Shown piece after piece: positions 5,391 to 33,534 of a stretch of DNA of 36,123 bases; positions within the stretch are counted from its first letter, which is position 1; every line of letters begins with the position of its first letter. Source of the stretch: an uncultured Pelagibacteraceae bacterium (lineage in GTDB: Bacteria; Pseudomonadota; Alphaproteobacteria; Pelagibacterales; Pelagibacteraceae); NCBI GenBank assembly GCA_902582475.1, contig CACHSH010000004.1, positions 1-36,123 of the forward strand, written 5' to 3'. Made by a program: the position numbers and the translations under genes. The notes beneath the pieces were generated by a model that worked only from the letters and a program-made list of their open reading frames with translations, was not told the DNA's origin and ran no database searches.

Positions 5391-5425
5391 AAAATTATAG
5401 TTAAGGTTTTTTTTTTAAATGTCAA

Positions 5426-6844
5426 CTAGGCACGGGAGTAAGATTTTTCTAATTCTTCAACGTATACGTTAATGTCTTCTAACATTTTAAGTTTGTTAGT
5501 TTCTTTGCTTTTTTCAAACTTTGCTCTTAAATCATCAATCTCTTTATAAGTTCTTGGAATTGTATTCCATTTCTTAACGTCAGTGGTAGATAAAACTCTT
5601 TTTATAATTGTTCCATGAATTTCATCATAATCTTCCTTGGGTAAAAGATCAGGCTTTTCTTGATATATTAATTTTTTTCCAAAATAATGAAATCTTTTAT
5701 CCTTGAATTTTTCTAAATACGAAAGCTTTTTATCCCAATCTGCTTCATGAAAACCTGACAAAATTTTATTATCCTCTGCCGGAGGAAAATTGTATAAACT
5801 TTCTTCCTCACAAATATCTTCTTGTGATTGGGTTTCCGCTTTTTCTTGAGCCTCATCCCTCAAAATCAACTCTACCTTTTCTGAAAATTTTTTATTTTTT
5901 CTTACTATATCTGCTCTTTCTCTTAATTTATTGATACCTATCATCTTATACTCTTCAAAATGATCCACATAAGAAGGGTTCATTACAATGGGGTGTTTAT
6001 TGTGGCGGCATGTTCTTAATACCTTTGGGGATTTTTTAATTTCTTCTTTTAAAACTTGAATTGGCATATTCATATAAATATTTGGATCATGTTTTAAATC
6101 AAATGTTTTTGGCCATTGGTAAATTGGATGTTGACAAACAAAAGTTTGAACAAAAGGAACGACTTTCCCATAGTAAAATTCATTAGTACAAAAAAGCTTT
6201 TCATTTTTAATTATTTTTAAACTTTCTTCTTTATTTGAGGTCAAAAGGCTGCTGTCCCAAACACTTGGGGCTTTCTTTTTTATTATCTTTGCTATAGCTA
6301 ATGTTGCTCCACAGTCTCCTATTGCTGTATGAGCCACATGTTTAATTCCATTTAGAGGGGCCATTGTATCAAGTTTGTACTCTAAATTACCTTTTTTATT
6401 TATAGCGTTTTTTAAAGTATTCGGATAATAAAGATTTGCTGCCCTAGCTAAATTAAGTAAATCACCTTCTTTGTTACCATTTGTTGTGGATGAAAAAGGA
6501 TAATGTAAATTTTGAAATAAAGTATTTCTAAAAAAAATCTGATCAAACTCAATATTATTCCACCCAATATATGTAACTTTCCCCCAGCTTTTTAATTTTT
6601 CAACAAACTGTTTTACCATTTGATAATGAGAAAGATTAGTTTCTTTCAATTTTTTTGGGGTAGTATTACTTACAATTAAAGACATAGCCTCTGGAATAAT
6701 TCCTGGTGATAGTCTACACCTAGCCTCAAACTTATCTAACTCATTCAATTGGTCGTCCACCAGAATAGCGCCCACCTCAATAATTTGACCCCATTGTTTA
6801 TTGGATGAACTTGTTTCGAAATCGTAAAATACAAAGTTTGACAT
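5426..6844 (-). CDS. sbcB: Exodeoxyribonuclease I-like DEDDh exonuclease
   Basis: This 472-residue protein carries a DEDDh 3'-5' exonuclease domain in the first 190 residues: Asp8 and Glu10 in 'YDFETSS', Asp101 in 'GWNNIEFDQ', and His172 with Asp177 in 'HTAIGDCGATLA'. The following region, with 'CRHNKHPIVMNP' and 'IGINKLRERADIV', matches the ExoI SH3-like and C-terminal domains of E. coli SbcB in order. SbcB degrades single-stranded DNA and shapes recombination intermediates. The C-terminal part (about 330-472) is highly charged. It lies between rmuC and trxA on the same strand, so it is probably co-expressed with another recombination-linked nuclease. The overall family is confident; strict orthology to sbcB is likely but not proven. 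Confidence 0.85.
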   Translation of the reverse strand: MSNFVFYDFETSSSNKQWGQIIEVGAILVDDQLNELDKFEARCRLSPGIIPEAMSLIVSNTTPKKLKETNLSHYQMVKQFVEKLKSWGKVTYIGWNNIEFDQIFFRNTLFQNLHYPFSSTTNGNKEGDLLNLARAANLYYPNTLKNAINKKGNLEYKLDTMAPLNGIKHVAHTAIGDCGATLAIAKIIKKKAPSVWDSSLLTSNKEESLKIIKNEKLFCTNEFYYGKVVPFVQTFVCQHPIYQWPKTFDLKHDPNIYMNMPIQVLKEEIKKSPKVLRTCRHNKHPIVMNPSYVDHFEEYKMIGINKLRERADIVRKNKKFSEKVELILRDEAQEKAETQSQEDICEEESLYNFPPAEDNKILSGFHEADWDKKLSYLEKFKDKRFHYFGKKLIYQEKPDLLPKEDYDEIHGTIIKRVLSTTDVKKWNTIPRTYKEIDDLRAKFEKSKETNKLKMLEDINVYVEELEKSYSRA

Positions 6845-6857
6845 TTAGGAAGTATTC

Positions 6858-7889
6858 TTACTTAAAGGCTTTAATTTTATCAGAATTTTGTTCGACTGTC
6901 TCTTTTACTGTTTCGGGATCTTTAATGTTATTAAGAGTATTCATTATAGATCTGGCATCTCTTCCAAAACTATCGGTTGAAGTCATGGCCTGCTCTAATT
7001 TTTTTCTCAAATCAATAATCCCATCAAAATGCTTTTCAAATCTTCTAGATATAAGTTTTAGATCACTATAAATCTGAGTTGCGTGTTTCTGAACTTTAAG
7101 TGTTTGAAATCCTAAATGATAAGACTGCAAGAGTGCTGATAAAGTGTTGGGTCCTGCAATAGTAATTTTATATTTTGTTCTAAGTTCCTCTAGTAAAAGT
7201 TCTTTTGTCTTTGGATCACGGTAGCTTGAAAGTTCTGCAAACAATCCTTCTGTAGGTGCATACACAATTGCAAAGTCTGTTGTTTTAGGTGGAGCAATAT
7301 ATTTTGAACTCACAGCTTTAGCCTTATTTCTAAAAGCGGAGGCCAGATCTTTTCTAGCTTGAGCTAAGGCTTCTTTATCTTTGGCTTGGTAAGCATTATC
7401 TATCTCTTTAAATTTTTCAATTGGCCAATGACTGTCAACAGGAACAAGAACGTCTTGAAGTTTAATTGCAAATTCAACTGTGTCACCAGTTTCATCAGGC
7501 TTCATTTTTACGTTTTCAATAAATTGGGTTGCAGGTAATAAATCTTTTAAAAGTGAGGCTAAAGAAAATTCTGCAAGAACACCATATTGTTTTACTCCAG
7601 CAAGAATTCGACTAAAATTATCTTGGCTTTTATTCAGGGATTCGACTTGTTTATTAAACACTCCCACTTTCTCATCTACCCTCGTTAAGGCACCTGACAT
7701 GTCTTTTGCTATATCCTTTGACATGCTTCCAAAAGACTGACTAAAAGTATCTTTAAAAGAATTGAATTCATTTTTAAAAGCTTGTGTCGGATCCTCAGTT
7801 TTTTGTTGTTTGTTACGAACTAAGAAGAATACCACTAGAATATTTAAGACTAGCAAAACAACTATAAGTGTAATTAGTATTGTATCCAT
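6858..7889 (-). CDS. rmuC: DNA recombination protein RmuC family
   Basis: RmuC proteins limit recombination at inverted repeats and resemble restriction-type nucleases. The 343-residue protein has an N-terminal membrane helix (residues 4-24), a coiled-coil stretch to about residue 100, then the RmuC nuclease-like domain. Diagnostic stretches include 'VPVDSHWPIEKF' (family: an Asp-Ser pair at the core), 'FAIVYAPTEGLFAEL' and the helical 'GFQTLKVQKHATQIYSDL' segment. The biochemical activity of the family is poorly defined. It is separated from sbcB by 13 bp, and a divergent promoter region separates it from the plus-strand gene at 7949. Confidence 0.88.
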   Translation of the reverse strand: MDTILITLIVVLLVLNILVVFFLVRNKQQKTEDPTQAFKNEFNSFKDTFSQSFGSMSKDIAKDMSGALTRVDEKVGVFNKQVESLNKSQDNFSRILAGVKQYGVLAEFSLASLLKDLLPATQFIENVKMKPDETGDTVEFAIKLQDVLVPVDSHWPIEKFKEIDNAYQAKDKEALAQARKDLASAFRNKAKAVSSKYIAPPKTTDFAIVYAPTEGLFAELSSYRDPKTKELLLEELRTKYKITIAGPNTLSALLQSYHLGFQTLKVQKHATQIYSDLKLISRRFEKHFDGIIDLRKKLEQAMTSTDSFGRDARSIMNTLNNIKDPETVKETVEQNSDKIKAFK

Positions 7890-7948
7890 TCGTTTATATA
7901 TACGGTGTATTTGCTAAATTACAAATTTTAATTTAAACAATGTAATTC
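7890..7948. promoter_or_regulatory. Divergent intergenic region between rmuC and DUF3047 gene
   Basis: This is a 59 bp spacer between head-to-head genes. It contains an alternating T/A stretch (TTTATATATACGGTGTATTT) that could supply -10 elements in both directions. No strong -35, operator or hairpin is visible. The promoter role is inferred from the divergent gene arrangement, not from a recognised consensus. Confidence 0.4.
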
Positions 7949-8566
7949 ATGAGATTTTTTGCATATTTTTTATCTGTTCTATTTATTTTTACAACTGTCA
8001 ATTCAAAAGAATTCCGAATCGATTTTAGTGACAAAGGTATGAAGCTTCTTAAAAAAAGAGGTTTTGGAAATAAAACTAATTATAGCAATGGTAAAGATGA
8101 AAAAGGTTGGTATTTAAAGGCTGAGGCTGACGGAACAGCAACGGGTCTTGGTATGGAAATTGATAAAGAACTTCTTAATGAAATGCCTTTTTTAAATATT
8201 ACTTTTAAGATTGAAAAAGATTTTACAAATATTGATCAAAAAACAAAGGATGGACACGATTGGGCTGCCAGAATTATGGTAGGTCATGGAAAAAAAATTG
8301 GTGCTAAATTAGTAAGCTTAGCTCACTCGTCGTTTTTGGAAGAGGGTTTTCTTCAACAAAGTCCTTGGACAAAAGGAAGCAGAGATTATGTAATATCAAA
8401 TGATAAGAGTGGTGAATGGCATACTCGAAAAGTAAATGTTAAGGAATTACTTGAAAAAACTCATGGAATTTCTTTTACTAACTTTATTGCTATTTTTTCA
8501 GACTCAAATAACTCAAAGCAAAAAATTATTGCATATTATAGGGATATCTATTTTAGTAGTGAGTAA
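7949..8566 (+). CDS. Exported DUF3047 family protein
   Basis: The 205-residue protein begins with a signal peptide (hydrophobic residues 4-18, cleavage near 'NSKE'), so it is probably periplasmic. The body matches the DUF3047 pattern: a 'GWYLKAEADGTATG' strand, 'DWAARIMV', a central 'WTKGSRDYVISND' strand, and a C-terminal 'FIAIFSDSNNSKQK' followed by 'YYRDIYF', which corresponds to the family's Asp-rich loop and final 'GDI' strand. No catalytic function is established. The stop overlaps the start of the downstream TauD-type gene (TAATG), which suggests coupled translation. Confidence 0.7.
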   Translation: MRFFAYFLSVLFIFTTVNSKEFRIDFSDKGMKLLKKRGFGNKTNYSNGKDEKGWYLKAEADGTATGLGMEIDKELLNEMPFLNITFKIEKDFTNIDQKTKDGHDWAARIMVGHGKKIGAKLVSLAHSSFLEEGFLQQSPWTKGSRDYVISNDKSGEWHTRKVNVKELLEKTHGISFTNFIAIFSDSNNSKQKIIAYYRDIYFSSE

Positions 8567-9363
8567 TGAATATAAAAGTAGAGCCGTTTAAAAACAATAT
8601 TGGTGCTTCAATTTCTTGTGATCTCAAATCTATAAAACCAAAAACAATTAACCAAATCAAAGAAGCTCTTAATAATTATGGTTTTGTTTGTTTCAGGGAC
8701 CAAAATTTAGAGCCAAGTGAGTATTTAAAATTTGCCCAAGAGCTAGGTAAAATTAAAGAATATCCAATGTTAAAAGATTTAGAAAACCATAAAGGTATTA
8801 CTGTTGTAGAAAGAAAAGAGAACGATAAAGGAAAATCTTACGGAGAAGGATGGCATACAGATAGTAGTTATTTGAGCAAAACTCCTAAATATACATGTCT
8901 TATGGGGAAAATAGTTAAGAAAGACCAAGGTCAAACTCTTTTTGCTTCCCAGTTAGCATCCTACGAAGCATTAGATCAAAAAACTAAAGATAAAATTGAA
9001 AATCTTGTAGGTGTTTTTAGTTCAGCAGGACCAATATCAGTTACTAGACTTGAGCGAGAAGCTGAGAGAGGAACAGGAAAGTCAAAAGATTTTTTAGCTG
9101 AACACTCAATTGTAAAAAAAGTTGGTAGTAAAAAAGCACTTTATTTAAGTCCTGGTCATACAATTGCCATAAAAAATCTCAGTGAAGAGGAGTCTAAAAA
9201 TCTCCTTAAGTTTTTATTCAACCATCAAACGAAAAAAGAGTTTCAAACTAGCTTTTTCTGGGAAAAAAACACAATTGTTATTTGGGATAATCACTCAGTC
9301 ATACATTCAGCCACACCTTTTCAAGGCAGAAGAATGATGCACAGAATTATTCTGGACGCATAA
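8566..9363 (+). CDS. TauD/TfdA-family 2-oxoglutarate-dependent dioxygenase
   Basis: The protein is a cytoplasmic Fe(II)/2-oxoglutarate oxygenase of 265 residues, close to TauD (about 280). The metal triad is visible: His97 and Asp99 in 'GWHTDSSY' and His247 in 'SVIHSATP'. The 2-oxoglutarate-binding Arg is in 'GRRMMHRI' (256 or 260). Family members hydroxylate taurine, other sulfonates, chlorophenoxyacetates or small carboxylates. Nothing here fixes the substrate: no ABC transporter or sulfite-handling genes flank it. It is translationally coupled to the DUF3047 gene. Confidence 0.88.
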   Translation: MNIKVEPFKNNIGASISCDLKSIKPKTINQIKEALNNYGFVCFRDQNLEPSEYLKFAQELGKIKEYPMLKDLENHKGITVVERKENDKGKSYGEGWHTDSSYLSKTPKYTCLMGKIVKKDQGQTLFASQLASYEALDQKTKDKIENLVGVFSSAGPISVTRLEREAERGTGKSKDFLAEHSIVKKVGSKKALYLSPGHTIAIKNLSEEESKNLLKFLFNHQTKKEFQTSFFWEKNTIVIWDNHSVIHSATPFQGRRMMHRIILDA

Positions 9364-9416
9364 AAAAAACAAAATTCAGCCCCTCTTGAAACAAAAAGTT
9401 TAATTATTTTCATTTT

Positions 9417-9629
9417 ATGAAAAATATAATTATCATTTTAACGTGTGCATTATTCCTTGCAAACTGTAGTAACCGTTATGTTCTTGGTACTAAATGTACT
9501 AGTCCAGATAAATCAACTGGTGCCTATGAAAAATCATTCATTTGGTCTGTTGACAGAACTATGAGTGATGATGCCTTTGGAAAAAGAATTTCTAAACAAA
9601 ACTGTCCTAAGATAGCTAAAAAATCTTAA
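9417..9629 (+). CDS. Small lipoprotein of unknown function
   Basis: A 70-residue protein with a lipoprotein signal peptide: hydrophobic 'IIIILTCALFLANC' with lipobox Leu-Ala-Asn-Cys (Cys17). The mature part, about 53 residues, is polar and contains two further Cys residues (27 and 63). No family is recognised. It lies in the plus-strand run between the dioxygenase and the hydrolase genes. The lipobox, together with a position in the same orientation as its neighbours, supports a real gene over the antisense frame that overlaps it. Confidence 0.65.
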   Translation: MKNIIIILTCALFLANCSNRYVLGTKCTSPDKSTGAYEKSFIWSVDRTMSDDAFGKRISKQNCPKIAKKS

Positions 9630-9651
9630 TTTTAGGAACACTTTAGAAAAT

Positions 9652-9753
9652 ATGATAACCATTGGTCTTGTACTGCTTGGTATTGCCGCACTATTGGTGT
9701 CTTTTTTAATCGTGAACTTTGATTCTAAAAACGATAAAAAAGACACCGAATGA
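9652..9753 (+). CDS. Single-helix membrane peptide (33 residues)
   Basis: A short frame reads MITIGLVLLGIAALLVSFLI, then a polar tail rich in Asp and Lys, ending in TGA at 9751-9753. It encodes one strongly hydrophobic helix with a charged cytoplasmic-type tail. Its stop overlaps the ATG of the next gene in the ATGA pattern, as in other coupled pairs here, which argues that it is translated. The distance to the lipoprotein gene upstream is 22 bp. Function is unknown; it might assist the neighbouring exported hydrolase. Confidence 0.5.
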   Translation: MITIGLVLLGIAALLVSFLIVNFDSKNDKKDTE

Positions 9754-10832
9754 TAAAATATTTCCTATTTATACTTTTCATTTTTTCTTTTAATAGTTTA
9801 AGTGCGATGGACAAAAAACCATATCATCATATTTATAAGGACGGAAAATTATATGCTTTTAGAAATCTTGAAGGTGGCCCTAAAAGAGATCCAAATTTTA
9901 AATGGGATTGGAAAGTTTTTAGAGAGGAAAAAAAGAAACTTAAGATCGATTATCCACCTGAACATGTAATAGATAAAAAAATAGTTTTAAAAAATCTTGA
10001 AAAACATAAATCTGATTCATATGTGATGTGGCTTGACCACGCGAGCTTTATAATTAAGCTTGGGGACACTACAATTATTACTGATCCTGTTTTTGAAAAA
10101 AATTATGGACCTATGATATTTGGTCCCAAAAAATTTATAGATTCTCCGTTAACCCTTAAAGAAATTCCTAAAATAAATTTATTTTTACTAACTCATAATC
10201 ATTATGATCACATGAGTATTCGTACTATAAAAAACTTTCCTTACAAGAATGCTAAAGTCCTTGCACCTCTTAAACTTGGAAAATATTTTACAAGGAATGG
10301 GTATAAAAAAGATACTGTTAAAGAAATGGATTGGTTTGATAAAATCAAAATTAATGACGAGATCACAGTGACGATGCTTCCAAGCCAACATTGGTCCAAA
10401 AGATGGGTTTGGGGAGATGGAAATACAAATAGAAGTCTTTGGGGAAGTTTTTTAATTGAATATAAAGATAAAAAAATCTTTTTTGCCTGCGATACTGGTC
10501 CCGCTCCTTTTTATAAAGAATTAGGAAAAAAATTTGGTCCTATCGATTTGGGTTTTGGAAATTTAGGGGCCTATAATTTTTATCCAATTGTTCCCGTCAA
10601 AGACAAATCTACTGCCCATGCGAACCCTGAAGAGCTTTTGTCATTAATGAAAGATTTAAAAGTGAAAAAGGTTATAGGAATGCATTGGGGAACTGCAATA
10701 TTAAGTTTGGAACCCATTTGGGAACCTCCAGTAAGATTTAAGGCAAATGCTGAAAAGGTTGGTTACAAAAAAGAAGATGCAATTATATTCAAAATTGGTG
10801 AGATCAAAAAGTTAGAAGATCTTATTAACTAG
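9750..10832 (+). CDS. Exported metallo-beta-lactamase-fold hydrolase (NAPE-PLD/RomA-like)
   Basis: The 360-residue protein has a signal peptide (hydrophobic residues 4-18, then 'SAMDKK') and a metallo-beta-lactamase domain. The dinuclear metal motif is 'THNHYDH' (His149, His151, Asp153, His154), followed by 'PSQHWSKR', 'ACDTG' and 'MHWGT'. The opening 'WLDHASFIIKLG', the 'ITDPVF' strand and the tail 'EPPVRFKAN' are typical of the N-acyl-phosphatidylethanolamine phospholipase D/RomA group. Those family members hydrolyse phosphodiester or related bonds; the substrate here is unknown. Export to the periplasm is inferred from the signal peptide. It converges with the basic coiled-coil gene, overlapping by 8 bp. 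Confidence 0.88.
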   Translation: MIKYFLFILFIFSFNSLSAMDKKPYHHIYKDGKLYAFRNLEGGPKRDPNFKWDWKVFREEKKKLKIDYPPEHVIDKKIVLKNLEKHKSDSYVMWLDHASFIIKLGDTTIITDPVFEKNYGPMIFGPKKFIDSPLTLKEIPKINLFLLTHNHYDHMSIRTIKNFPYKNAKVLAPLKLGKYFTRNGYKKDTVKEMDWFDKIKINDEITVTMLPSQHWSKRWVWGDGNTNRSLWGSFLIEYKDKKIFFACDTGPAPFYKELGKKFGPIDLGFGNLGAYNFYPIVPVKDKSTAHANPEELLSLMKDLKVKKVIGMHWGTAILSLEPIWEPPVRFKANAEKVGYKKEDAIIFKIGEIKKLEDLIN

Positions 10833-11907
10833 CTTTTTTTAAACTCTCCCTCATTCTCTCAAGATACAAAATAAGACTATCGGTCAAGTCATCACCAAAT
10901 TTAAATATAGCATTTCGATTATATTCTCGTGTTTCTTGTTTGATTTTATCTTCTACAATAATTTCCTTCTGGGCATCTTGGTCTTTTACGTAAATTAAAA
11001 TCAGAAAATTTTCGTTTTGTTCCTGATCTTCACGAATTATAATTTCGGATTGTTCGTAAACTAAATTTATTACTCTTAATAAATCTGCATTTTTTGGTAA
11101 ATATCTTTTATTAATTTGATAGACTAAAGAAATCGCACTTCGAGTGAAACTTTCAAGACTTGTTTCTATTAATTCTCTTCTTTCAAGGTACTCTTTTTCT
11201 TTCTGTCTTATTTCATCAATACTTGCTTTATCTGATAATGTTACACCAAGCTCTTCGACCCTTTTTCTCAACCTCTCATTTCTAAGTGCTTTATACTTTT
11301 CTCTTACCTCATCAATTCTTTTTTGAAATGAATTAAAATCCTCTTTTTCTATATTTAGACTATATTTCTCAATTGATTTAATTTCTTCTAGTTCTCTATC
11401 TCTAAAACGTTCTAGAGTTTTTTCTAATTTGACTTCTTCTAAAAACTTTATCTGTTTTTCTTTTTCTTTTTCTCTAATTGCTTTTTGCTCCTGTCTCAAA
11501 AAATTTTTTAATTCTTTTGCTCTACTTTTTGCAAGAACTTGCTCTTCTTTAATTTCTCTTTTTAAAATTTCTTTTCTTAAAGAAGATTGTCTTTTTCTTT
11601 CTTTATCTTGCTCATTAAAATTTGAAATCTCTGCCCTATGTCTATTTTTCTTGAAATCTTTGATTTTTTTTACAATTGGTGTTGTAATTTTTTTATATAT
11701 TTTTTTAAAATTGAATATTATTTTTGGTTTAAAAAAACTTAAAAAACTCAATAATTTTAGATTATTAGTTAATTTTCTCTTATTTTTTTTATACTTGGTC
11801 TTTCTTCTTTTGCTGGGGCGTCTTTTTCCCAATAGTTTAATTCTAACTTTTCTAATTTTTTGTCTAGATTTTTTTCTTAATTTTTTTTTCTTTTTCTTTT
11901 TTTTCAT
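10825..11907 (-). CDS. Highly basic coiled-coil protein, unknown function
   Basis: This 360-residue protein is not recognised. Residues 1-95 are extraordinarily Lys/Arg rich, beginning with Met followed by eight lysines, and resemble a histone-tail-like or RNA/DNA-binding extension. Residues 95-245 are charged Glu/Lys/Arg coiled coil. Residues 245-360 look like a compact domain with 'SFTRSAISLVYQINKRYLP' and 'ENFLILIYVKDQDAQ', ending in an amphipathic helix. There is no signal peptide. It follows cfa by 24 bp and is probably in the same operon. A hydrophobic antisense frame overlaps it but is much shorter and looks like the mirror image of the Lys-rich codons. Confidence 0.65.
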   Translation of the reverse strand: MKKKKKKKKLRKKSRQKIRKVRIKLLGKRRPSKRRKTKYKKNKRKLTNNLKLLSFLSFFKPKIIFNFKKIYKKITTPIVKKIKDFKKNRHRAEISNFNEQDKERKRQSSLRKEILKREIKEEQVLAKSRAKELKNFLRQEQKAIREKEKEKQIKFLEEVKLEKTLERFRDRELEEIKSIEKYSLNIEKEDFNSFQKRIDEVREKYKALRNERLRKRVEELGVTLSDKASIDEIRQKEKEYLERRELIETSLESFTRSAISLVYQINKRYLPKNADLLRVINLVYEQSEIIIREDQEQNENFLILIYVKDQDAQKEIIVEDKIKQETREYNRNAIFKFGDDLTDSLILYLERMRESLKKAS

Positions 11908-11931
11908 GCCTATTTTACTAATAACAGTAAC

Positions 11932-13122
11932 TTAGGAATAAATATAGTCTCTCGTAGAGGGAGCTGTGTTAAGTTTCTTGGTAAGTTGAAGCTGATATAC
12001 AACCTGATCTCCATGCCTAAAAGCCATTTCGCAAGAAGTTAGATAAAATTCGAACATTCTAAAAAACCTATCATCAAACATTTTTAAGACTTTATCTTTA
12101 TTTTTAACAAATCTATTTTTCCAATTTTTAAGCGTCTGAGCATAATGCATTCTTAGGACCTCAGCGTCTGATAAGATTAAACCAGATTTTTCAATTGGGG
12201 TAGCGACCTCGCTTAAACTTGGAGTATATCCACCAGGAAAAATATATTTAGTTATCCAAGGTTGAGGATTTCTCGGTGAATTCACTGAACCAATAGTGTG
12301 TAACAATGCTATACCGTCATCTTTCAATGTTTCAAATATCTTATTGAAGTAAGTTTTGTAAAATTTTCTACCCACATGTTCAAACATTCCAACTGATACA
12401 ATTCTGTCATATTTTTCTTTAATCTCTCTATAATCCATTAATTTAAATTGAACTTGATTTCCAAGATTGAGTTCTTTTGCTTTTTCCGAACTATAATTAA
12501 ACTGATTTTTAGACAAAGTTACACCTGTAACCTGACACTTGGCTTGTTTGGCTATTTCCATTGATAGATGACCCCAGCCACTTCCAATATCTAAAACTCT
12601 AGAATTCTCTTTGATATTAAGTTTTTTAATGATGTGGTTAATCTTATTTTGTTGAGCATCTTCAAGAGAATTATTGTCATTTTTAAAATATGCGCAAGAA
12701 TATTGCTTTAAGGGATCTAAAAAAAGAAAATAAAGTTCATCTGAAATATCATAATGATGAGCAACATTCATTTTAGATTTTTTAATAAAATTAAAATTGG
12801 TTAAATAACGATAAGATCCTCGTATTGAATTAATAAATTCACTAATTGAATTAGTTTTATCACGACCAACATTTTTTAAAGCGAGTTCTAAAAAGCTACT
12901 GATGTCACCACTTTTAAAAGAAATTTTTCCTTCGGTGTATGCTTCTCCTAGATAAAGATCAGGATAAAAAAGTAATTTATAGTGTAATTTTTTATCATGT
13001 ATTTTCATTTTTATTGGCGGATTACTTTGAGGGTTGCCTACAACATGTTCTTTACCATTTGCATCTTCCAATAAAAAACCTCCCTTTTTGAATAATTTAT
13101 TTAAAAATTTAATTAATAACAT
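11932..13122 (-). CDS. cfa: Cyclopropane-fatty-acyl-phospholipid synthase
   Basis: This SAM-dependent enzyme (396 residues) adds a methylene bridge to unsaturated acyl chains of membrane phospholipids. The N-terminal lipid-binding domain is followed by the diagnostic 'HHYDISDELYFLFLDP', 'YSCAYF', the SAM-binding 'VLDIGSGWGHLSMEIA', 'GVTLSKNQ', 'SVGMFEHVG' and 'YIFPGGYTP'. All match the Cfa family in order. It is the middle gene of a minus-strand trio, 3 bp after the DapA-like lyase gene and 24 bp before the basic coiled-coil gene. Confidence 0.93.
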   Translation of the reverse strand: MLLIKFLNKLFKKGGFLLEDANGKEHVVGNPQSNPPIKMKIHDKKLHYKLLFYPDLYLGEAYTEGKISFKSGDISSFLELALKNVGRDKTNSISEFINSIRGSYRYLTNFNFIKKSKMNVAHHYDISDELYFLFLDPLKQYSCAYFKNDNNSLEDAQQNKINHIIKKLNIKENSRVLDIGSGWGHLSMEIAKQAKCQVTGVTLSKNQFNYSSEKAKELNLGNQVQFKLMDYREIKEKYDRIVSVGMFEHVGRKFYKTYFNKIFETLKDDGIALLHTIGSVNSPRNPQPWITKYIFPGGYTPSLSEVATPIEKSGLILSDAEVLRMHYAQTLKNWKNRFVKNKDKVLKMFDDRFFRMFEFYLTSCEMAFRHGDQVVYQLQLTKKLNTAPSTRDYIYS

Positions 13123-13125
13123 AAT

Positions 13126-14016: not shown

Positions 14017-14062
14017 TTTTTTACCTAAATTTGTATATAAACGTACTATAAATTAAAAAAGA

Positions 14063-15489: not shown

Positions 15490-15495
15490 AATTAC

Positions 15496-17562: not shown

Positions 17563-17563
17563 T

Positions 17564-17866
17564 CTAAAAACAATTTTTACTACTAAAACCAACTACAACA
17601 TTTTTAGGATTAATTTCAAATCTTCTTTCACACTTTATTTTAAGTTTAGATTTTAAATAGACAAAATGCTTATTTTCTTTATCGGTGGTCTCGATTAAAT
17701 CTGGTTCACCAAATTCGATTTTTAATTCATCTGTGGTTTTATTAAGAAATTTACTTAATTTTTGCTCTTCTTCTGAAATTGTTTTATCAACTTTAGTAGT
17801 TACAGTTTTACATCCTAAAAGAGTAACAAAAAGTATAATAGACAGAATGAAATTTATTTTTTTCAT
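17564..17866 (-). CDS. Small lipoprotein, weakly SmpA/BamE-like
   Basis: A 100-residue lipoprotein with signal sequence and lipobox Leu-Leu-Gly-Cys (Cys19). The mature part contains a Gly-x-Pro turn after an amphipathic helix ('TTDELKIEFGEPD') followed by beta strands, a pattern shared with the SmpA/BamE fold. Two further Cys (residues 79 and 99) might pair. The BamE similarity is structural impression only. It is probably anchored in the inner or outer membrane facing the periplasm. Confidence 0.65.
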   Translation of the reverse strand: MKKINFILSIILFVTLLGCKTVTTKVDKTISEEEQKLSKFLNKTTDELKIEFGEPDLIETTDKENKHFVYLKSKLKIKCERRFEINPKNVVVGFSSKNCF

Positions 17867-19386: not shown

Positions 19387-19406
19387 AATATTTTTTATTC
19401 GGAAAT

Positions 19407-19440
19407 AAAAGGGTTAGATTTACATCTAACCCTTTTTTTT
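19407..19440 (+). terminator. Strong intrinsic terminator overlapping end of converging gene
   Basis: A perfect 9 bp stem GGGTTAGAT (19411-19419) / ATCTAACCC (19424-19432) encloses a 4 nt loop, with AAAA on the left and eight T on the right. It terminates the purine permease transcript. Because the left side is A-rich (T-rich on the other strand), it can also act on the converging phosphoribosyltransferase transcript. It overlaps that gene's coding end: the T-tract read backwards encodes three lysines, and the right stem arm contains the Gly codon and the TAG stop (19426-19428). Confidence 0.92.
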
Positions 19441-19956: not shown

Positions 19957-19965
19957 AGTTTAAAT

Positions 19966-21457: not shown

Positions 21458-21504
21458 TTTACCACCTTTAATTAATTGAAATAACATATTAGAATTTTAA
21501 AACA

Positions 21505-23623: not shown

Positions 23624-23624
23624 T

Positions 23625-26600
23625 ATGCATAATTTTTGTTTGCTTAATATAAAGAGACCAGTTTTAAGTTCAGTATTTTCTTTATTGCTGGTTGTTTTTG
23701 GACTTTATACTTTTTTTGAACTTAGCACGAGAGAGCTTCCAAAAAATCTTCAACCACCCGAAGTTGTTATATCGACAAAATATACTGGGGCTAGCCCGTC
23801 GATTATTGCTTCAGAAATTTCTGAGCCGATCGAATTAGCTGTTGGAGGAGCAGAGGGAATTAAATCAATTGATACTCTTTCTGAAATAGGGAGAAGCACA
23901 ATAAAAATAGAGTTTTTCACCAGTATAGATATTGATGATGCTGCTAACGATATAAGAGAGAGAATAGCTAGAGTAATCGATAATTTACCAGAAGATAGTA
24001 AAGCACCAGAGGTAAGAAAAGCTTCTGCAGGATTCTCAACAAGTATGTGGTTATCAGTAAGCAGTACATCTTGGGATTCATTAGATATAGGTGATTATGT
24101 TAAAAGAAATTTAGTTGACGCATTTAGCTCTGTTCCTGGAACTGGAAGAGTTATTGTTGGTGGAATAAATGAAAAAGCGGTGAGAGTGTATCTTAATCCA
24201 GTAAAGCTAAGTGCTAACGATTTAGATATTAGAGAAGTTGAAAGCTCTATAAGAAAAAATAATATTGCTGTACCAGCAGGAACAATCGAAGCTAACAATG
24301 TTGATCTTACTCTTGATTTAGGGAAGACCTATACAGATATTAGTTCAATTAAAAAACTTCCAATAAAAAAAATCAAAGGAAAAACTATAACCTTGAATGA
24401 CCTAGGGGATGTTCGTTATGGCCCGGTATCTGAAAAAACATTGTTTAAAGCTCAAAGTCCAGACGTTTTAAATGAAAATACTGTAGGCATAGGTATATAT
24501 GCACGGACAAATGAAAGTACAGTTACTCTTTCAAATAATATAAGAAAAAAAATAAAAGAAGTCAGCAGAACCCTACCAGATGGTCTTAAATTATCTGTAA
24601 GTTTTGATAGAGCAACATATATAAAAGAAGCTATTCAAATGTGTTACCAATCAATAATTTTAGCTTTAGCTTTAGTTGTTGGAATTATTTATCTTTTCTT
24701 AGGAAATGTAAGAGCAACTATAGTGCCGGCAGTGACTTTGCCAGTAAGCTTAATAGGAGCATGTTTGGGTTTGTGGATATTCGGTCTAACAATTAATGTT
24801 TTTACTCTTCTTGCGATAATATTAAGTGTAGCAATAGTTACTGATGATAGCGTTGTAATGACAGAGTCTATTTATCATCGTATAGAACAAGGGGATACTC
24901 CTCTTAATGCAGCTGCAACAGGTTCGAAAAATGTAATTTTTGCAATTATCTCAACAAGTATAATTCTGTTAGCAACATTTGCCCCACTATTATTTATTGG
25001 AGGAATAAGTGGAACATTGTTTAGAGAAATGGCTATTACACTTTCTATCGCAATTGTAATAAGTACTTTTACCGCTCTTTCAATAGCACCAATGCTTGGT
25101 TCAAAATTACTTAATAAAAAAAAATCAAAATCGAAAATTGTTTTAAAATTTGAAAGAATATTCAACTCATTTGAAGAATTTTACTCTGACACTTTGGGTT
25201 ATTGGATAAAAAAACCAAAAACTATTGTTTGGTTTATGATTTTTGTTGTTGGTCTGGCTGTTTTTCTTTTTAGCTTTACACCAAAAACTTTATTAGAACA
25301 AAATCCAGACAGAGGAGTTTATTTGGTATTTGGAAAAACTGATGAGTCTTCATCTTTTGAGTACACGGTAGATAAGGCAGAAAAGGTGGAGAAAAGATTA
25401 ATTCCATTACTTCAAGATGAAAATGAGCCTTATCAAAAGCTAATAATGAGAGTTCCAGGTTTTGGAAGATCTTCACAATCTTATAATAGTTTTATTATCA
25501 TAGCTTTGCTTGACAATTGGAATGACAGAAAAGAAAGTGCTCAAAAAATTGTTAGAAAAGCTATTGGGAAAATAGTTACTGTTCCAGGAACTATGGCTTT
25601 CCCACTAACACCAAATTCAGTGAGAGTTAGTAATTATCAAAAACCAGTTGTGGTTACAATGACAGGTCCATCTTATGAGACTTTGTTTAAATGGCAAAAT
25701 GAAATTATGAAGGAACTTAGAAACAATAGAGGACTAGCTGATATAACTTCTGATTATACGAAAAATAAACCTGAGGTAAAACTTGTTATAGATGAAAATA
25801 AAGCTAAAGACCTAGGTTTGTCTAATCAATCAATTGGAAAATCAATTGAGACATTATATTCAGGAAAAAGCGTTACAACTTTAAATGAGTCTGGAAAAGA
25901 ATATCCAATTATTTTACAAGCAGATATCAAAGATAGAAGAAATACTGAAACACTAAGTAAAATATTCGTTAGATCTGAAACAACTGGCAAATTAATTTCT
26001 CTTGCAAACGTAGTTAGTTTTAAAGAGAGGGGATCTCCTAAATTATTAACTCGTTATCAAAGATCAAAGTCCGTAACTATTACAGCTAGATTAGTAGGTG
26101 GTTACACACTTAACGAGGCTTTAAAATTTATTGAAAAAACAATCGATGATAAAGCACCAACTGCAGGTATTTTTTACAAAGGTAAATCATTAGATCTTAA
26201 AGAGGCTTCCGGCGAACTATTAGTAATTTTTGCTTTAGCGTTAGTGAGTGCTTATCTTGTAATGGCAGGTACTTTTAATGCTTGGAGACAACCTTTTGTT
26301 GTTATGTTAACGGTTCCATTAGCAGCTCTCGGTGGTTTAATATTTATATTATTGTTTGGAAGTACGATAAATATTTTCTCACAAATTGCTTTGATTGTTC
26401 TTATCGGTATTGCGACAAAAAATAGTATCTTAATTGTAGATTGGGCGAATCAACTTCGTGTTTCAGGTAAAACAGTTGAAAGTGCAATTGTCGAGTCTTG
26501 TAAAAGAAGGTTTAGACCAATAATGATGACCAGTTTATCAACCCTGATTGCTATGGTACCTCTAATAATTGGAAATATAGGGCCAGGTGCAGGTGAAGGA

Positions 26601-26756
26601 ATAAGATTAGCTGTAGGCTGCACTATATTTGGAGGTATGCTAATCAGTACTTTTTTAACTTTATTTACAACTCCGGTATTTTATTTATTACTTTGTAAAA
26701 ATTCTAAGAGAATGGATGAGATAGATATTCAATTAAGCAAAGAGTTTAGTAAATAA
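23625..26756 (+). CDS. RND-family efflux pump, AcrB-type inner-membrane component
   Basis: The 1043-residue protein has 12 membrane helices and two large periplasmic loops. Proton-relay residues are present: Asp407 and Asp408 in 'IVTDDSVVMTES' (the same numbers as in AcrB) and Lys932 in 'IATKNSILIVDW'. The first helix region 'IKRPVLSSVFSLLLVVFGL' and 'PNLQPPEVVIST'-type entry (here 'LPKNLQPPEVVIST') match hydrophobe/amphiphile exporters. The substrate is unknown. It forms an operon with the hairpin-less adaptor 1 bp upstream; no TolC-like gene is nearby. It converges with the transglycosylase gene, overlapping by 11 bp. Confidence 0.94.
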   Translation: MHNFCLLNIKRPVLSSVFSLLLVVFGLYTFFELSTRELPKNLQPPEVVISTKYTGASPSIIASEISEPIELAVGGAEGIKSIDTLSEIGRSTIKIEFFTSIDIDDAANDIRERIARVIDNLPEDSKAPEVRKASAGFSTSMWLSVSSTSWDSLDIGDYVKRNLVDAFSSVPGTGRVIVGGINEKAVRVYLNPVKLSANDLDIREVESSIRKNNIAVPAGTIEANNVDLTLDLGKTYTDISSIKKLPIKKIKGKTITLNDLGDVRYGPVSEKTLFKAQSPDVLNENTVGIGIYARTNESTVTLSNNIRKKIKEVSRTLPDGLKLSVSFDRATYIKEAIQMCYQSIILALALVVGIIYLFLGNVRATIVPAVTLPVSLIGACLGLWIFGLTINVFTLLAIILSVAIVTDDSVVMTESIYHRIEQGDTPLNAAATGSKNVIFAIISTSIILLATFAPLLFIGGISGTLFREMAITLSIAIVISTFTALSIAPMLGSKLLNKKKSKSKIVLKFERIFNSFEEFYSDTLGYWIKKPKTIVWFMIFVVGLAVFLFSFTPKTLLEQNPDRGVYLVFGKTDESSSFEYTVDKAEKVEKRLIPLLQDENEPYQKLIMRVPGFGRSSQSYNSFIIIALLDNWNDRKESAQKIVRKAIGKIVTVPGTMAFPLTPNSVRVSNYQKPVVVTMTGPSYETLFKWQNEIMKELRNNRGLADITSDYTKNKPEVKLVIDENKAKDLGLSNQSIGKSIETLYSGKSVTTLNESGKEYPIILQADIKDRRNTETLSKIFVRSETTGKLISLANVVSFKERGSPKLLTRYQRSKSVTITARLVGGYTLNEALKFIEKTIDDKAPTAGIFYKGKSLDLKEASGELLVIFALALVSAYLVMAGTFNAWRQPFVVMLTVPLAALGGLIFILLFGSTINIFSQIALIVLIGIATKNSILIVDWANQLRVSGKTVESAIVESCKRRFRPIMMTSLSTLIAMVPLIIGNIGPGAGEGIRLAVGCTIFGGMLISTFLTLFTTPVFYLLLCKNSKRMDEIDIQLSKEFSK

Positions 26757-27342
26757 TATATTTTTTTCTATTTAATTTATCTTTACACATTGTTAGCTGT
26801 TTTCTGTAATTAGATGCTGTATCCTTCGCTGACTTTGCATAAATAATTGCTTTTTTATCTTTAGCGTAATTTTTATAATCACCCCAGCCTTTGTAATAAG
26901 CAAGATATTGTCTATAAGCATCATTCTTAGGTATTTTTAAAATTTTGTGTGTCTTACTCACGTACCATCCGATAAAATCAACCGAGTCTTTAAATCTGGC
27001 TCTTGTAGCCAATTTATTTCCAGTTTCTTTTTTATACTGCTCCCAAGTACCTTTGACTGCCTGAGAATAGCCAAATGAGCTGGATTTACGTTTATAGGGA
27101 ATAACTTTAAAAAGTTTAATTCGCTCAGGTTTTGCAAGCCAATTAAAATCACTCTCTTTTTTAACAAATGCTAATTGAATATAAACAGGAACGCCCCATT
27201 TTTTTTCTACAGCTTTGGTATGTTTATACCATAGGTAACGCTCTTCAAAAATGGCACAGCTATTTTGAGTATTTTTTGGAATAGAAGAGCAGGCAGTAAC
27301 AAAGAGTAATAAAATTGATATTAAAAAAAATTTCTTTTTCAT
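26746..27342 (-). CDS. Lipoprotein lytic transglycosylase (SLT-like)
   Basis: The protein cleaves peptidoglycan glycan strands at the membrane surface. It has 198 residues, a lipoprotein signal with lipobox Val-Thr-Ala-Cys (Cys18), then a lysozyme-like SLT domain: catalytic Glu63 in 'VKKESDFNW', 'SSFGYSQAVKGTWEQY' (the Gly-x-x-Gln motif region) and a Tyr-rich end 'YLAYYKGWGDY'. The layout fits the SLT_4-type alphaproteobacterial lipoproteins. It lies 5 bp after an exported protein gene on the same strand. Confidence 0.82.
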   Translation of the reverse strand: MKKKFFLISILLLFVTACSSIPKNTQNSCAIFEERYLWYKHTKAVEKKWGVPVYIQLAFVKKESDFNWLAKPERIKLFKVIPYKRKSSSFGYSQAVKGTWEQYKKETGNKLATRARFKDSVDFIGWYVSKTHKILKIPKNDAYRQYLAYYKGWGDYKNYAKDKKAIIYAKSAKDTASNYRKQLTMCKDKLNRKKYIIY

Positions 27343-27347
27343 ATTAT

Positions 27348-27932
27348 TTAAAAAGCTTTCTCTGATTTATTACATTGCCATCTAGCAGTTGTATAATTGC
27401 GTTTATCAAAGATGGTTTCTATATAATCTTCAATTATTCTATATTTTTCTAATTCCTGTGAAAAACTTCCTAAATGTGAAACTTCTATATACTTCAATGA
27501 CGGATTTTTGTAATTTTTAATTTTTTTATTTATCTTATCAAGCTCAGTCAATACCATTTGGTAACCAGTTTCATTCGAAACATTACTTTTCATATTAAGT
27601 TTGCCATCTACTCTAGATATTGACGTTACAGAAAAACTATAAGGTTTATTTTTTATACCTGTTACGGTTTGAGCAATAAAATACTCATAGATAAATTCAT
27701 CATTTACAATAATATTGGTTGAAGAACTATCATCACCACTTCTTTTAATTGTTTTCTTTTTTAGATCAATGATTGTTTTATAAGAATATTCAGAAAGATT
27801 TTTTGATTTTTCATATGAAAAAAAACGAACACCTTCGCATTTTAAAATTATTTTTTCGTCAGCATTACTTACATTAAATAGAAATATATTCAAAAATATT
27901 ATGATTAAAAAATCCTTTTTTTTTATCCGCAT
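27348..27932 (-). CDS. Exported protein of unknown function
   Basis: About 194 residues, not recognised. A basic N terminus and hydrophobic core (roughly residues 8-23) ending 'NVSNADE' form a clear signal peptide. The mature part is beta-rich with 'KIILKCEGVRFFSYEKS' and a C-terminal 'TARWQCNKSEKAF'; the single Cys near each end may form a disulfide. The ATG at 27932, overlapping the nuclease gene's stop, is chosen over a GTG 12 bp earlier. It is translationally coupled with the exported nuclease upstream. Confidence 0.65.
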   Translation of the reverse strand: MRIKKKDFLIIIFLNIFLFNVSNADEKIILKCEGVRFFSYEKSKNLSEYSYKTIIDLKKKTIKRSGDDSSSTNIIVNDEFIYEYFIAQTVTGIKNKPYSFSVTSISRVDGKLNMKSNVSNETGYQMVLTELDKINKKIKNYKNPSLKYIEVSHLGSFSQELEKYRIIEDYIETIFDKRNYTTARWQCNKSEKAF

Positions 27933-28381
27933 TTTTTTTCCCACGAGGGGTTATATTTCATTTTCCAAATACCTAGTTTTTTACTTTTAGCATATTCTTG
28001 TTCCTCTGCATATTTCCCTTTAGAGTAGTAGATAAAATCACAAGCATATCCATTTTTTACCATAAAAGATGAAAGGCTTTCTCCGTCAACAAAACATTCG
28101 GCAACTGTTCTTTGATGTTTATCTTTATTTTTTTCTCTCACGCAAGTAACAACTTGATTAGCTATTTTTTTTATAAGCTTATCTTTTGCTAATTTATATC
28201 CAACTTCATTTCTTTCTGGAGAATTTATTCCTCCAAAACGAATTTTCTCTTTATCAATATCAATTGTATCACCATCGATAATTCTAGCTTTTCCTTTAGC
28301 AACATTTTTTTCAGAACTATTAGAAATCGAATATGAAATTAAAACTAAGATACTAAATAAAATCAGACTTAGCTTTTTCAT
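27923..28381 (-). CDS. Exported staphylococcal-nuclease-like nuclease
   Basis: The 152-residue protein has a signal peptide (hydrophobic residues 5-18, cleavage near 'NSSEK') and an SNase fold. Catalytic-site equivalents are visible: the Asp pair in 'IIDGDTIDI', Arg and Glu in 'IRFGGINSPE', and Arg in 'HQRTVAECF'. It probably degrades nucleic acid in the periplasm, perhaps for phosphate or base scavenging. Family TNase domains use Ca2+. The start lies inside the zeta-subunit gene (29 bp overlap). Confidence 0.87.
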   Translation of the reverse strand: MKKLSLILFSILVLISYSISNSSEKNVAKGKARIIDGDTIDIDKEKIRFGGINSPERNEVGYKLAKDKLIKKIANQVVTCVREKNKDKHQRTVAECFVDGESLSSFMVKNGYACDFIYYSKGKYAEEQEYAKSKKLGIWKMKYNPSWEKKCG

Positions 28382-28661
28382 TAAATTCTTTCATTTTATT
28401 TCTAATTTCGTCATCAGAAATATTATGACCTTTTAAATCTGCCTGAATTTTTCTAAATACATCCTCATCTCCAGCTTCTTGGAAGTCTGCTTTTATTACA
28501 GATTGAATATATTCTTTTTCCTTATTCTCATCATAACCAAGTTTTTGTGATGCCCATTGACCAAGATATTTATTTCTTCTTGAGGCAACTTTGAATTTTA
28601 ACTCTTCATCATGGGCAAATTTTTTTTCAAAGGATTTTTTTCTCTCGTCAAATTTTTCCAT
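28353..28661 (-). CDS. DUF1476 protein, F1-ATPase inhibitor zeta subunit family
   Basis: The alphaproteobacterial zeta subunit inhibits ATP hydrolysis by F1Fo-ATPase (shown in Paracoccus). The 102-residue all-helical protein has the family's 'FDERKKSFEKKFAHDEEL' N terminus, 'RRNKYLGQWA', 'AGDEDVFRKI' and a conserved length. The inhibitory N-terminal region is present. It is not near ATP-synthase genes but sits between VanZ-like and nuclease genes, overlapping both (14 and 29 bp). Confidence 0.85.
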   Translation of the reverse strand: MEKFDERKKSFEKKFAHDEELKFKVASRRNKYLGQWASQKLGYDENKEKEYIQSVIKADFQEAGDEDVFRKIQADLKGHNISDDEIRNKMKEFNEKAKSDFI

Positions 28662-29046
28662 ATTTAAACTTTTTATATAAAAATATTATAACAATAGCTG
28701 AAAATGTTCCAAGTAAATTTGCAAAAAGATCTAGGGACTCAAAAGACCTATTTGGTATAAATAGATGAGATAATTCTAAAAATAATGACAGTGTAACAAG
28801 AAAAATTAAGATCTTATTAAAACTAGTTTGATTTATATAACTTATTAATCCGATAGTTGTTAAATAAAAAAAAGCAAGTGTATGATTAATAGATGTTCCC
28901 ATTGGATTTGGAATCATGTCTGGTTGCTTTCCCAAATCTCCATAAAGAAAATAACCAATTAGGCTTCCGGGAAAAAGATATAGAATTAATAAACAGACCA
29001 GTGAAAAATTATATAAATAACGAACTATACGGATTTTATAATCCAT
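28648..29046 (-). CDS. VanZ-like membrane protein
   Basis: A 132-residue protein with about four membrane helices: 'LVCLLILYLFPG', 'INHTLAFFYLTTIG', 'KILIFLVTLSLFLELSHLF' and 'LFANLLGTFSAIVIIFL'. The Glu in 'LELSHLFIPNR' and the Asp in 'LDLFANLLG' match the VanZ family pattern E..Q.f.p.R...D...N..G. The function of VanZ-like proteins is poorly defined beyond links to glycopeptide resistance. It overlaps cutA by 22 bp. Confidence 0.7.
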   Translation of the reverse strand: MDYKIRIVRYLYNFSLVCLLILYLFPGSLIGYFLYGDLGKQPDMIPNPMGTSINHTLAFFYLTTIGLISYINQTSFNKILIFLVTLSLFLELSHLFIPNRSFESLDLFANLLGTFSAIVIIFLYKKFKYGKI

Positions 29047-29339
29047 TTTAAAAAATCTGTATTGCCATTTTTGATATCAAAAAAAATAACACACGGGACA
29101 TCATAGCTGTGCAATTTTTTAACATTTTTGATAATCTTTTGAACATTTTTGTTCATAGTCTTTCCAACTATTAAGATTTCTTTAGCCTTTATTACTTTTC
29201 CTTTCCAGGTAAATATAGAGTCAACATTATTGATGATGTTTGCACATGCTACTAATTTCTTTTTTACAAGAAACGAAGCTATTTTATGCGCTTCCTTTTT
29301 CTTGGGACAAGTAATGTAAAAGAATTTAATACCCTTCAT
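29025..29339 (-). CDS. cutA: CutA1 family protein
   Basis: CutA is a small trimeric ferredoxin-like protein first linked to copper tolerance; its exact role is unsettled. The 104-residue protein matches the family: 'KKKLVACANIINNVDSIFTW' (family: RLAACVNIIP-SIYWW), 'KEILIVGKT', 'LHSYDVPCVIFFDI' and 'FLKWI' at the C terminus. It is divergent from gpmA with a 35 bp spacer, and the VanZ-like gene overlaps its 3' end. Confidence 0.92.
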   Translation of the reverse strand: MKGIKFFYITCPKKKEAHKIASFLVKKKLVACANIINNVDSIFTWKGKVIKAKEILIVGKTMNKNVQKIIKNVKKLHSYDVPCVIFFDIKNGNTDFLKWIIKSV

Positions 29340-29374
29340 TTTTATAATTTAATATATTAAATATATTATATTCA

Positions 29375-30088
29375 ATGGGAAAACTCATAGCAATCAGACA
29401 TGGCCAAAGTACCTGGAATGCAGAGAATCGTTTTACAGGATGGGTAGATGTTGACCTTTCAGAGAGAGGTGTTTTAGAGGCAGAAAAGTCAGGAAAATTA
29501 ATCAAAGAATTAAATTTAGATTTTGATATGTGTTTCACCTCTTATCTTAAGAGAGCAATAAATACACTTGAAATAGTATTAGAAGTTCTTGGAAAAAAAT
29601 ATCAATATAAAAAGGCCTGGGAACTTAACGAAAGACACTATGGTGCTCTGACAGGTTTAAATAAAGCTGAAACTAAAAAAAAGTTAGGTGAGGAACAATT
29701 TAAAAAATACAGAAGATCTTGGGATATTCCACCACCATCACTAGGTAAGGACTCTCAATACAGTTCTCATAATGACAAACTATATACAGAGTTAAAAAAA
29801 ATACCTGACACTGAGTCTTTAAAAGACACCTACAATCGTGTCGTGCCATTCTTTGAAAAAAATATAGTAAAACATATTAAAAATGAAAAAAATATTATTA
29901 TGTCTGCCCACGGAAATACTATAAGAGCGTTAGGTAAAAAAATTTTTAATATTTCTGATAAAAGTATAAATTTATTTGAAATACCAACCGGAAACCCTTT
30001 AATTATTCATTTTGATAATTCAGGAAAAGTTTTGAGCACAAAATATTTAGATGAGTCTAGAAAAAAAGATATTATTTCTAATATTTAA
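29375..30088 (+). CDS. gpmA: 2,3-bisphosphoglycerate-dependent phosphoglycerate mutase
   Basis: The enzyme interconverts 3- and 2-phosphoglycerate in glycolysis and gluconeogenesis. The 237-residue protein carries the phosphohistidine motif 'IRHGQSTWNAENRFTGW' (His9), 'SERG', 'WELNERHYGALTG' and the second catalytic His in 'SAHGNTIRAL'. It is the only plus-strand gene in the 26746-36123 stretch. It converges with the nucleotidyltransferase gene, overlapping by 11 bp. Confidence 0.96.
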   Translation: MGKLIAIRHGQSTWNAENRFTGWVDVDLSERGVLEAEKSGKLIKELNLDFDMCFTSYLKRAINTLEIVLEVLGKKYQYKKAWELNERHYGALTGLNKAETKKKLGEEQFKKYRRSWDIPPPSLGKDSQYSSHNDKLYTELKKIPDTESLKDTYNRVVPFFEKNIVKHIKNEKNIIMSAHGNTIRALGKKIFNISDKSINLFEIPTGNPLIIHFDNSGKVLSTKYLDESRKKDIISNI

Positions 30089-32183: not shown

Positions 32184-32194
32184 TGGCTACTAAT

Positions 32195-33484: not shown

Positions 33485-33534
33485 ATAAAAATCTTGTAAC
33501 AATTTAATTTACAGTAATCAAGTAGACTAATTAT

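Follow-up and report, generated by a model that had tools for sequence, protein, structure and literature searches.

Exonuclease I at the place of the missing addAB genes in a conserved gene block of SAR11 bacteria

The helicase-nuclease genes addA and addB are missing from a conserved gene block in SAR11 bacteria, and a gene encoding exonuclease I (ExoI, also SbcB or XonA) lies in their place beside trxA. The window, i.e., the whole stretch of 36,123 nucleotides analyzed here, derives from a SAR11 member, an uncultured Pelagibacteraceae bacterium. The course of events that we consider probable is that addAB were lost from the block, exoI took their place, the block was later opened in SAR11, and ExoI now participates in the handling of broken DNA ends; the order of these events and the function of ExoI in break repair are what we infer. 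A bolder proposal, that AddAB was repeatedly replaced in place and in function by ExoI in Alphaproteobacteria and that ExoI, with RmuC in SAR11, controls broken ends, is advanced tentatively and appears rather doubtful.

The left flank of the block consists of folC (3814–5073, + strand; NCBIfam TIGR01499, 178 bits, above cut-off) and trxA (5070–5390, − strand; TIGR01068, above cut-off), which borders the addAB slot. At the other end the slot was originally bordered by a nucleotidyltransferase gene (ntp, 30078–30776, −; PF00483), followed by an APH family phosphotransferase (aph, 30773–31738, −; PF01636), tsaE (31728–32183, −; PF02367) and, as the next block gene, ahcY (32195–33502, −; PF05221). 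On the addA side of the slot lies exoI (5426–6844, −; NF008746), adjoined by rmuC (6858–7889, −; PF02646, E = 9e-45, 153 bits against a gathering score of 26), and a histidine phosphatase gene (29375–30088, +; PF00300) adjoins the right flank. The remaining interval genes (7949–29339) encode DUF3047, TauD-like, metallo-hydrolase, Cfa, DapA-like, glycosyltransferase 9, DnaJ, S9 peptidase, permease, phosphoribosyltransferase, HhH-GPD, EamA, MsrA, rhodanese, HlyD, AcrB, SLT, SNase, zeta inhibitor, VanZ and CutA proteins, and three unassigned ones that matched no Pfam family (10825–11907, 17564–17866, and 27348–27944).

An earlier note on this DNA had placed both flanks here with addAB missing between them, and the gene calls, with their coordinates and strands, agree: 24.7 kb without addAB separate folC-trxA from ntp-aph-tsaE, and a profile scan of 27 interval proteins (an overlapping 168-aa ORF at 11429–11935 was left out) returned no match to AddA, AddB or an integrase. 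The tRNA search of the interval found none and its repeats are short and imperfect, hence a mobile island at the slot was rejected. The note's description of the interval as ordinary, mostly unrelated genes lacking integrase, tRNA and repeats thus stands for the integrase and the tRNA, needs qualifying for the repeats, and misses that ExoI and RmuC are repair genes located there. Its premise on the usual gene order was borne out by 20 hand-picked AddB-bearing loci of Alphaproteobacteria, where trxA, addA and addB adjoin in 19 and the nucleotidyltransferase gene lies beyond addB in 15. Four additional AddB-bearing loci were more varied, with trxA adjoining addA in two, one ORF apart in one and not found near addA in the last.

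The note had also proposed to search for addA and addB beyond the locus, and had implied a loss particular to this genome. No AddA was found in the window's own genome, which is only 62.7% complete, so that the absence of AddAB rests on relatives: AddB was detected in none of the 197 genomes of the family and none of the 297 of the order Pelagibacterales, including 150 of high quality (at least 90% complete), and a loss confined to one genome is thereby contradicted. Across the class, AddB was present in 216 of 240 genomes at E ≤ 0.001, 183 of them above cut-off; score cut-offs may miss divergent members, as a clear AddA scored 823 bits against a cut-off of 860.75. A single strong UvrD-helicase ORF of 676–753 aa occurred in each of 14 of 15 SAR11 genomes, which argues against AddA, RecB and AdnAB, and the own genome, as far as it is assembled, contained no strong one. 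The searches for AddB and for UvrD thus revealed neither AddB nor a long UvrD-family subunit, hence no helicase-nuclease of the AddAB, RecBCD or AdnAB type; a second, weak UvrD-family match in a 623-aa frame of genome G009 counts against our preferred explanation.

ExoI acts on single-stranded DNA. The window protein matches NF008746 over its full length (residues 2–467 on model positions 7–475 of 477, E = 1.1e-41), and its four PDB sequence matches are all ExoI (E about 1e-20). The five residues that we take to be catalytic (DEDDh; D15, E17, D108, H181, and D186 in E. coli ExoI numbering) are conserved in all 37 aligned rows, the window and E. coli included. Full-length family match and catalytic residues are therefore common to the window protein and E. 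coli SbcB/XonA, while the two differ in that the window protein scores 143 bits, under the NCBIfam cut-off of 260; E. coli reaches this cut-off and none of the 240 class genomes does, so it may be too strict for the class. The AlphaFold2 model was poor (mean pLDDT 57.8). We conclude that 5426–6844 encodes exonuclease I with intact active-site residues, with 3′-5′ single-strand exonuclease activity predicted from the sequence. SbcB was described in a 2024 paper as narrowly conserved among gammaproteobacteria (PMC11784430).

Within the order, ExoI was found in 277 of 297 genomes and in 144 of the 150 of high quality; the 20 Pelagibacterales genomes without a match count against the preferred explanation. 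Among 80 SAR11 loci, the best 80 of 118 retrieved with the window's own ExoI protein and hence leaning to near kin, trxA lies within 250 bp of exoI in 79 and an rmuC like that of the window within 400 bp in 76. The RmuC family adjoins exoI in four more Pelagibacterales loci from two families (L202, L203, L206, and L207), and no SAR11 locus among those seen had exoI beside the nucleotidyltransferase gene, which also counts against the preferred explanation. Outside SAR11, five AddB-lacking genomes show the block closed, with exoI in the place of addAB, in the order folC-trxA-exoI-(ntp-aph)-tsaE: trxA-exoI-ntp-aph-tsaE in G586, G404, and G537 (loci L197, L198, and L199) and trxA-exoI-tsaE in G445 and G569 (L200 and L201). 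There ahcY adjoins tsaE in L197 and stands one ORF apart in L198–L201. These genomes represent three lineages. The RpoB tree clearly separates two of them (G586; G445/G569) from SAR11, and shows no clear separation for the lineage labeled f10. In four further AddB-lacking genomes exoI is located at other sites, and 12 of the 24 AddB-lacking class genomes had no ExoI match; both observations again count against the preferred explanation.

Plain streamlining, in which addAB simply disappeared and exoI, having arrived next to trxA by chance or through a single transfer, persisted there by descent with no role in replacing them, is a serious contender, somewhat short of an even chance. ExoI occurs in 12 of 24 AddB-lacking and in 9 of 216 AddB-bearing class genomes (Fisher p = 9e-9), but much of this association may be explained by shared ancestry, since a tree-aware pair test lent it no support (7 pairs, median p = 1; on average, ExoI changed in the same direction in 0.6 pairs and in the opposite one in 1.3). 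The test relied on a biased sample of 64 hand-chosen genomes, 59 of them with RpoB, comprising AddB-lacking ones and selected AddB-bearing ones (mostly small or weak in AddB, plus all six with strong ExoI), and including one row, G593, probably read in the wrong frame (branch length 10). In the ExoI tree, a single clade of both SAR11 families was rejected (p = 0.00016), which complicates vertical descent from a single replacement. The G586 exoI is sister to that of Pelagibacteraceae (support 99/99) and a clade uniting all slot rows was not rejected (p = 0.067), whence the slots may share an origin, as streamlining would have it. Repair genes also appear broadly lost: among the 15 SAR11 genomes tested, RecF was above cut-off in three, RecJ was found in ten and RecQ was above cut-off in none, its absence being likely rather than certain given weak matches in all 15 and cut-offs that may miss divergent members. 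Against streamlining stand the recurrence of exoI in the same place in the three lineages outside SAR11 and the retention of ExoI with intact catalytic residues in genomes such as the complete G003, which has no AddB or RecJ match and no RecF above cut-off.

ExoI and RmuC could instead act as a pair that scavenges or defends against linear foreign DNA and so succeeds AddAB in its DNA-destroying rather than its repair role, a reading that we judge unlikely. RmuC is considered a PD-(D/E)XK-type nuclease, exoI and rmuC are paired in either gene order across the two families of the order, and in G009 a DISARM-like gene is located some 5 kb away from exoI. Such a pair would need a helicase partner because ExoI acts on single strands, however, and in the five closed-block genomes the search next to exoI detected no rmuC. 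The earlier note had favored rearrangement over an island. No sign of a mobile island was seen, but a recent local rearrangement in this strain that inserted genes and removed addAB is very improbable, and the order-wide absence of AddB refutes it as the cause of the addAB loss. Gene order in relatives, which the note had suggested comparing, also counts against it: G001, from the same genus, shares the order and has an opening of about 23.7 kb (24.7 kb in the window), and exoI adjoins trxA order-wide. The opening is wider elsewhere, at 272–333 kb in seven SAR11 genomes that are single contigs and belong to three other genera. The nucleotidyltransferase place was known in 15 genomes, and the spacing was measured in the ten, the own one included, with a listed exoI place; roughly 24 kb occurs only in this genus among them. 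Local rearrangement may thus explain the 24 kb spacing, and the opening looks like an event separate from the loss of addAB. That addAB sit in the missing 37% of the own genome has practically no probability left: incompleteness speaks for it, and it was rejected on the order-wide absence of AddB and on UvrD-family ORF lengths, with no strong one above 753 aa in 14 near-complete relatives.

According to the replacement that we prefer, addAB would have been lost from the trxA-addA-addB-ntp-aph-tsaE block before the Pelagibacterales radiated, the exonuclease I gene would have come to occupy their place, rmuC would have joined it in SAR11, and the block would then have opened between exoI/rmuC and ntp, by 24.7 kb in this genus and about 300 kb in others. 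Without AddAB, unwinding, trimming and RecA loading would be uncoupled: a UvrD-type helicase may unwind broken ends, RecJ, where present, may cut the 5′ strand, and ExoI may trim or otherwise handle the 3′ tail, also holding down illegitimate joining, before RecA, putatively loaded by RecO/RecR, invades. Precedents for such a role of ExoI are offered by the E. coli recB1080 mutant, whose RecBCD unwinds and neither cuts nor loads RecA, and in which repair and recombination need ExoI and ExoI suppresses illegitimate recombination (PMC3375238), and by Vibrio, where recombination is reported to be promoted by SbcB, with preliminary genetic evidence for contact with RecA (PMC11784430). In E. coli without RecBC, by contrast, active ExoI is described as blocking RecFOR repair of ends (PMC1193525), which counts against our explanation; the same source states that bacteria without RecBCD/AddAB nearly always also lack SbcB, and the ExoI kept in AddB-lacking SAR11 runs against this co-absence.

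If the bolder proposal is correct, breaks would be repaired by a minimal route that does without AddAB, RecBCD or a recognizable RecQ and, in many cases, lacks RecF or RecJ as well, and the accepted view that loss of the helicase-nuclease requires loss of ExoI would be reversed. The retention of ExoI calls into question a rule that rests on E. coli genetics and on a 2005 survey, and its position at the lost enzyme's address makes broken-DNA processing in SAR11 a testable question.

That SAR11 has lost the helicase-nuclease has already been published, in terms of RecBCD, in a study whose repair passage reports RecBCD and mutS/mutL absent from SAR11 Ic and IIa.A, and the RecF pathway absent from P. 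ubique and Ic (PMC12374537, ISME J 2025). Our results share with it the loss of a RecBCD/AddAB-type enzyme and differ in RecF, above cut-off here in the three genomes mentioned; in its main text the word “addA” does not occur, and its repair-loss passage is silent on ExoI and on the locus. With the RecF pathway of E. coli recBC sbcB mutants SAR11 shares the lack of a RecBCD/AddAB-type enzyme, whereas it differs in RecQ, which is not above cut-off, in the patchy occurrence of RecF and RecJ, and in possessing an ExoI with intact catalytic residues.

Both flanks of the interval lie where the earlier note had placed them, with profile matches to folC and trxA on the left (3814-5390) and to the nucleotidyltransferase, phosphotransferase, tsaE and ahcY genes on the right (30078-33502), and none of the 27 proteins scanned between them matched AddA, AddB or an integrase. 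The interval also holds no tRNA, and such repeats as it has are all short and imperfect. Nor are its genes simply unrelated ones: the first, adjoining trxA, encodes exonuclease I (exoI, 5426-6844), followed by rmuC (6858-7889), and the ExoI protein is up to 93% identical to those in genome records of Pelagibacteraceae (SAR11).

The absence of addAB extends well beyond the interval. AddA had no match in the genome from which the window derives (778 kb in 46 contigs, the window being contig C4; estimated completeness 62.7%), and AddB was detected in none of 197 genomes of the family (0/77 high-quality) and none of 297 of the order (0/150 high-quality). In the class it was found in 216 of 240 genomes, some of 0.8-1.2 Mb and with one locus (L214) at 31% G+C, which shows that small genomes rich in A+T are within reach of the search. 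AddA, RecB and AdnAB carry a UvrD-helicase domain; it was not found in the assembled part of the window's genome, and each of 14 near-complete SAR11 genomes has a single strong ORF with it (676-753 aa). Weak second matches (E 2e-5 to 6e-4) occurred in G009, G022 and G005; one in G009, within a 623-aa frame, exceeds the cut-off once its neighbours in frame are added. From the AddB absence and this ORF survey, the loss of addAB is order-wide and not a gap of one assembly.

The gene order given in the earlier note is real: trxA, addA and addB stand in a row in 19 of 20 AddB-bearing class genomes, hand-picked from the matches listed among the 216, and the nucleotidyltransferase gene lies beyond addB in 15 of these 20, about 2 kb off in loci L289 and L297. 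Four more loci with AddB vary: L214 and L216 have trxA next to addA, L211 has one ORF between the two genes, and in L212 no trxA was found. In SAR11, trxA lies within 250 bp of exoI on the same strand in 79 of the 80 exoI loci kept out of 118 (the exception, L045, ends inside exoI), and rmuC within 400 bp in 76; G003 has one ORF between rmuC and exoI, and G005 two further ORFs between exoI and trxA. The order trxA-rmuC-exoI occurs in the second family, in both loci with a confirmed rmuC (L206, L207). ExoI was found in 277 of the 297 order genomes (144 of 150 high-quality), with no match in G155, G173, G288, G289, G203 and G205, all at least 90% complete and belonging to the same AddB-lacking sample. 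Four loci (L036, L038, L039, L044) differ from the window mainly in two genes, trxA with only about 45% identity and accD with about 31-33%, against 61-95% for most neighbours; trxA and accD alone may have undergone allelic replacement. About 5 kb from exoI in G009, a gene similar to DISARM DrmA (L202:1091-4816; 919 bits vs. a cut-off of 950) hints at an uptake of defence genes here as well.

The decisive comparison is with genomes outside SAR11. The class sample contains 24 genomes without AddB, three of them SAR11; nine of the other 21 have an ExoI match, and five of these nine carry exoI in the addAB place, as folC-trxA-exoI-nucleotidyltransferase-phosphotransferase-tsaE in G586, G404 and G537 and as folC-trxA-exoI-tsaE in G445 and G569. 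The last two proteins are diverged (22-23% identity to the window's, the ExoI model matching over the N-terminal half), with catalytic residues kept. In G419, G550, G426 and G556, exoI lies elsewhere, and in none of the nine AddB-bearing genomes with an ExoI match (six strong) does it adjoin trxA within the stretch examined. In this sample, therefore, every exoI observed at the trxA-side address belongs to a genome without AddB.

How often this arose was approached through trees and association. ExoI matches occur in 12 of 24 AddB-lacking and 9 of 216 AddB-bearing genomes (Fisher p = 9e-9), and in 9/21 vs. 9/216 without SAR11 (p = 1.6e-6); this raw association is strong, but the 7 independent pairs available on the tree do not support it (median p = 1). 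An RpoB tree (59 genomes, quick search, SH-aLRT only) puts G586 beside AddB-bearing G623 (99) and G445 with G569 in a second starred group, both placements being separate from SAR11, and G404 in an open group with SAR11; G537 had no RpoB match. Two genomes of 0.6 Mb have their rpoB (G413:C1:110063-114085, G544:C1:64591-68607) within an open reading frame of some 2,700 aa, perhaps a fusion with rpoC. The ExoI tree, whose deep order is not resolved, joins G586 to Pelagibacteraceae (99/99). The ExoI of G586 (L197) is thus sister to that of a family from which RpoB separates the genome, and may have been transferred into the same gene slot. An ExoI clade of both SAR11 families without G586 was rejected (p = 0.00016); with G586 added p was 0.042, with G586 and the f10 lineage 0.030, and a single clade of all 26 sequences at the trxA-side address was not rejected (p = 0.067). 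Trees and clade tests fit repeated exchange, an exoI transfer to the same position, or a combination of the two.

The block, which stands open by 24.7 kb here, appears to have been opened in an event separate from the loss of addAB, because the distance from exoI to the nucleotidyltransferase gene (start to start, single-contig genomes taken as circles) varies. The spacing of the window recurs in its congener G001 (23.7 kb) and gives way to far larger ones in other relatives, 272-333 kb in seven that are assembled as one contig (genera g3, g5 and g9); in G069 it is 290 kb along one contig.

The recJ and recF genes, to which the earlier note had pointed, are unevenly present: RecJ was found in 10 of 15 SAR11 genomes, the window's own among them, with no match in single-contig G003, G043 and G063, and RecF exceeded the cut-off in three (genera g5 and g9), with weak matches in all 15. 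Those three single-contig genomes also lack an AddB match and a RecF above the cut-off. RecQ exceeded it in none of the 15, all having weak matches. We suggest that broken ends in SAR11 would be unwound by UvrD, the 5' strand cut by RecJ where present, and the 3' tail managed by ExoI.

The helicase-nuclease loss is already known: according to a 2025 study, SAR11 Ic and IIa.A lack both RecBCD and mutS/mutL, and P. ubique and Ic lack the RecF pathway (PMC12374537). What our searches did not find in the literature is exoI at the addAB address, nor did a whole-word text search find SAR11 paired with sbcB. Keeping ExoI makes sense in light of two reports: in E. coli recB1080 cells, which unwind without RecA loading, xonA deletion impairs both repair and recombination and makes illegitimate recombination more frequent (PMC3375238), and in Vibrio SbcB promotes recombination in transformation, its nuclease activity not being needed (PMC11784430). 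Caulobacter, as listed in PMC1839093, has addAB without sbcB. When E. coli has no RecBC, active ExoI stands in the way of end repair by RecFOR (PMC1193525). According to an earlier survey, bacteria without RecBCD or AddAB nearly always lack SbcB too (PMC1193525); SAR11 does the opposite, keeping ExoI without AddAB.
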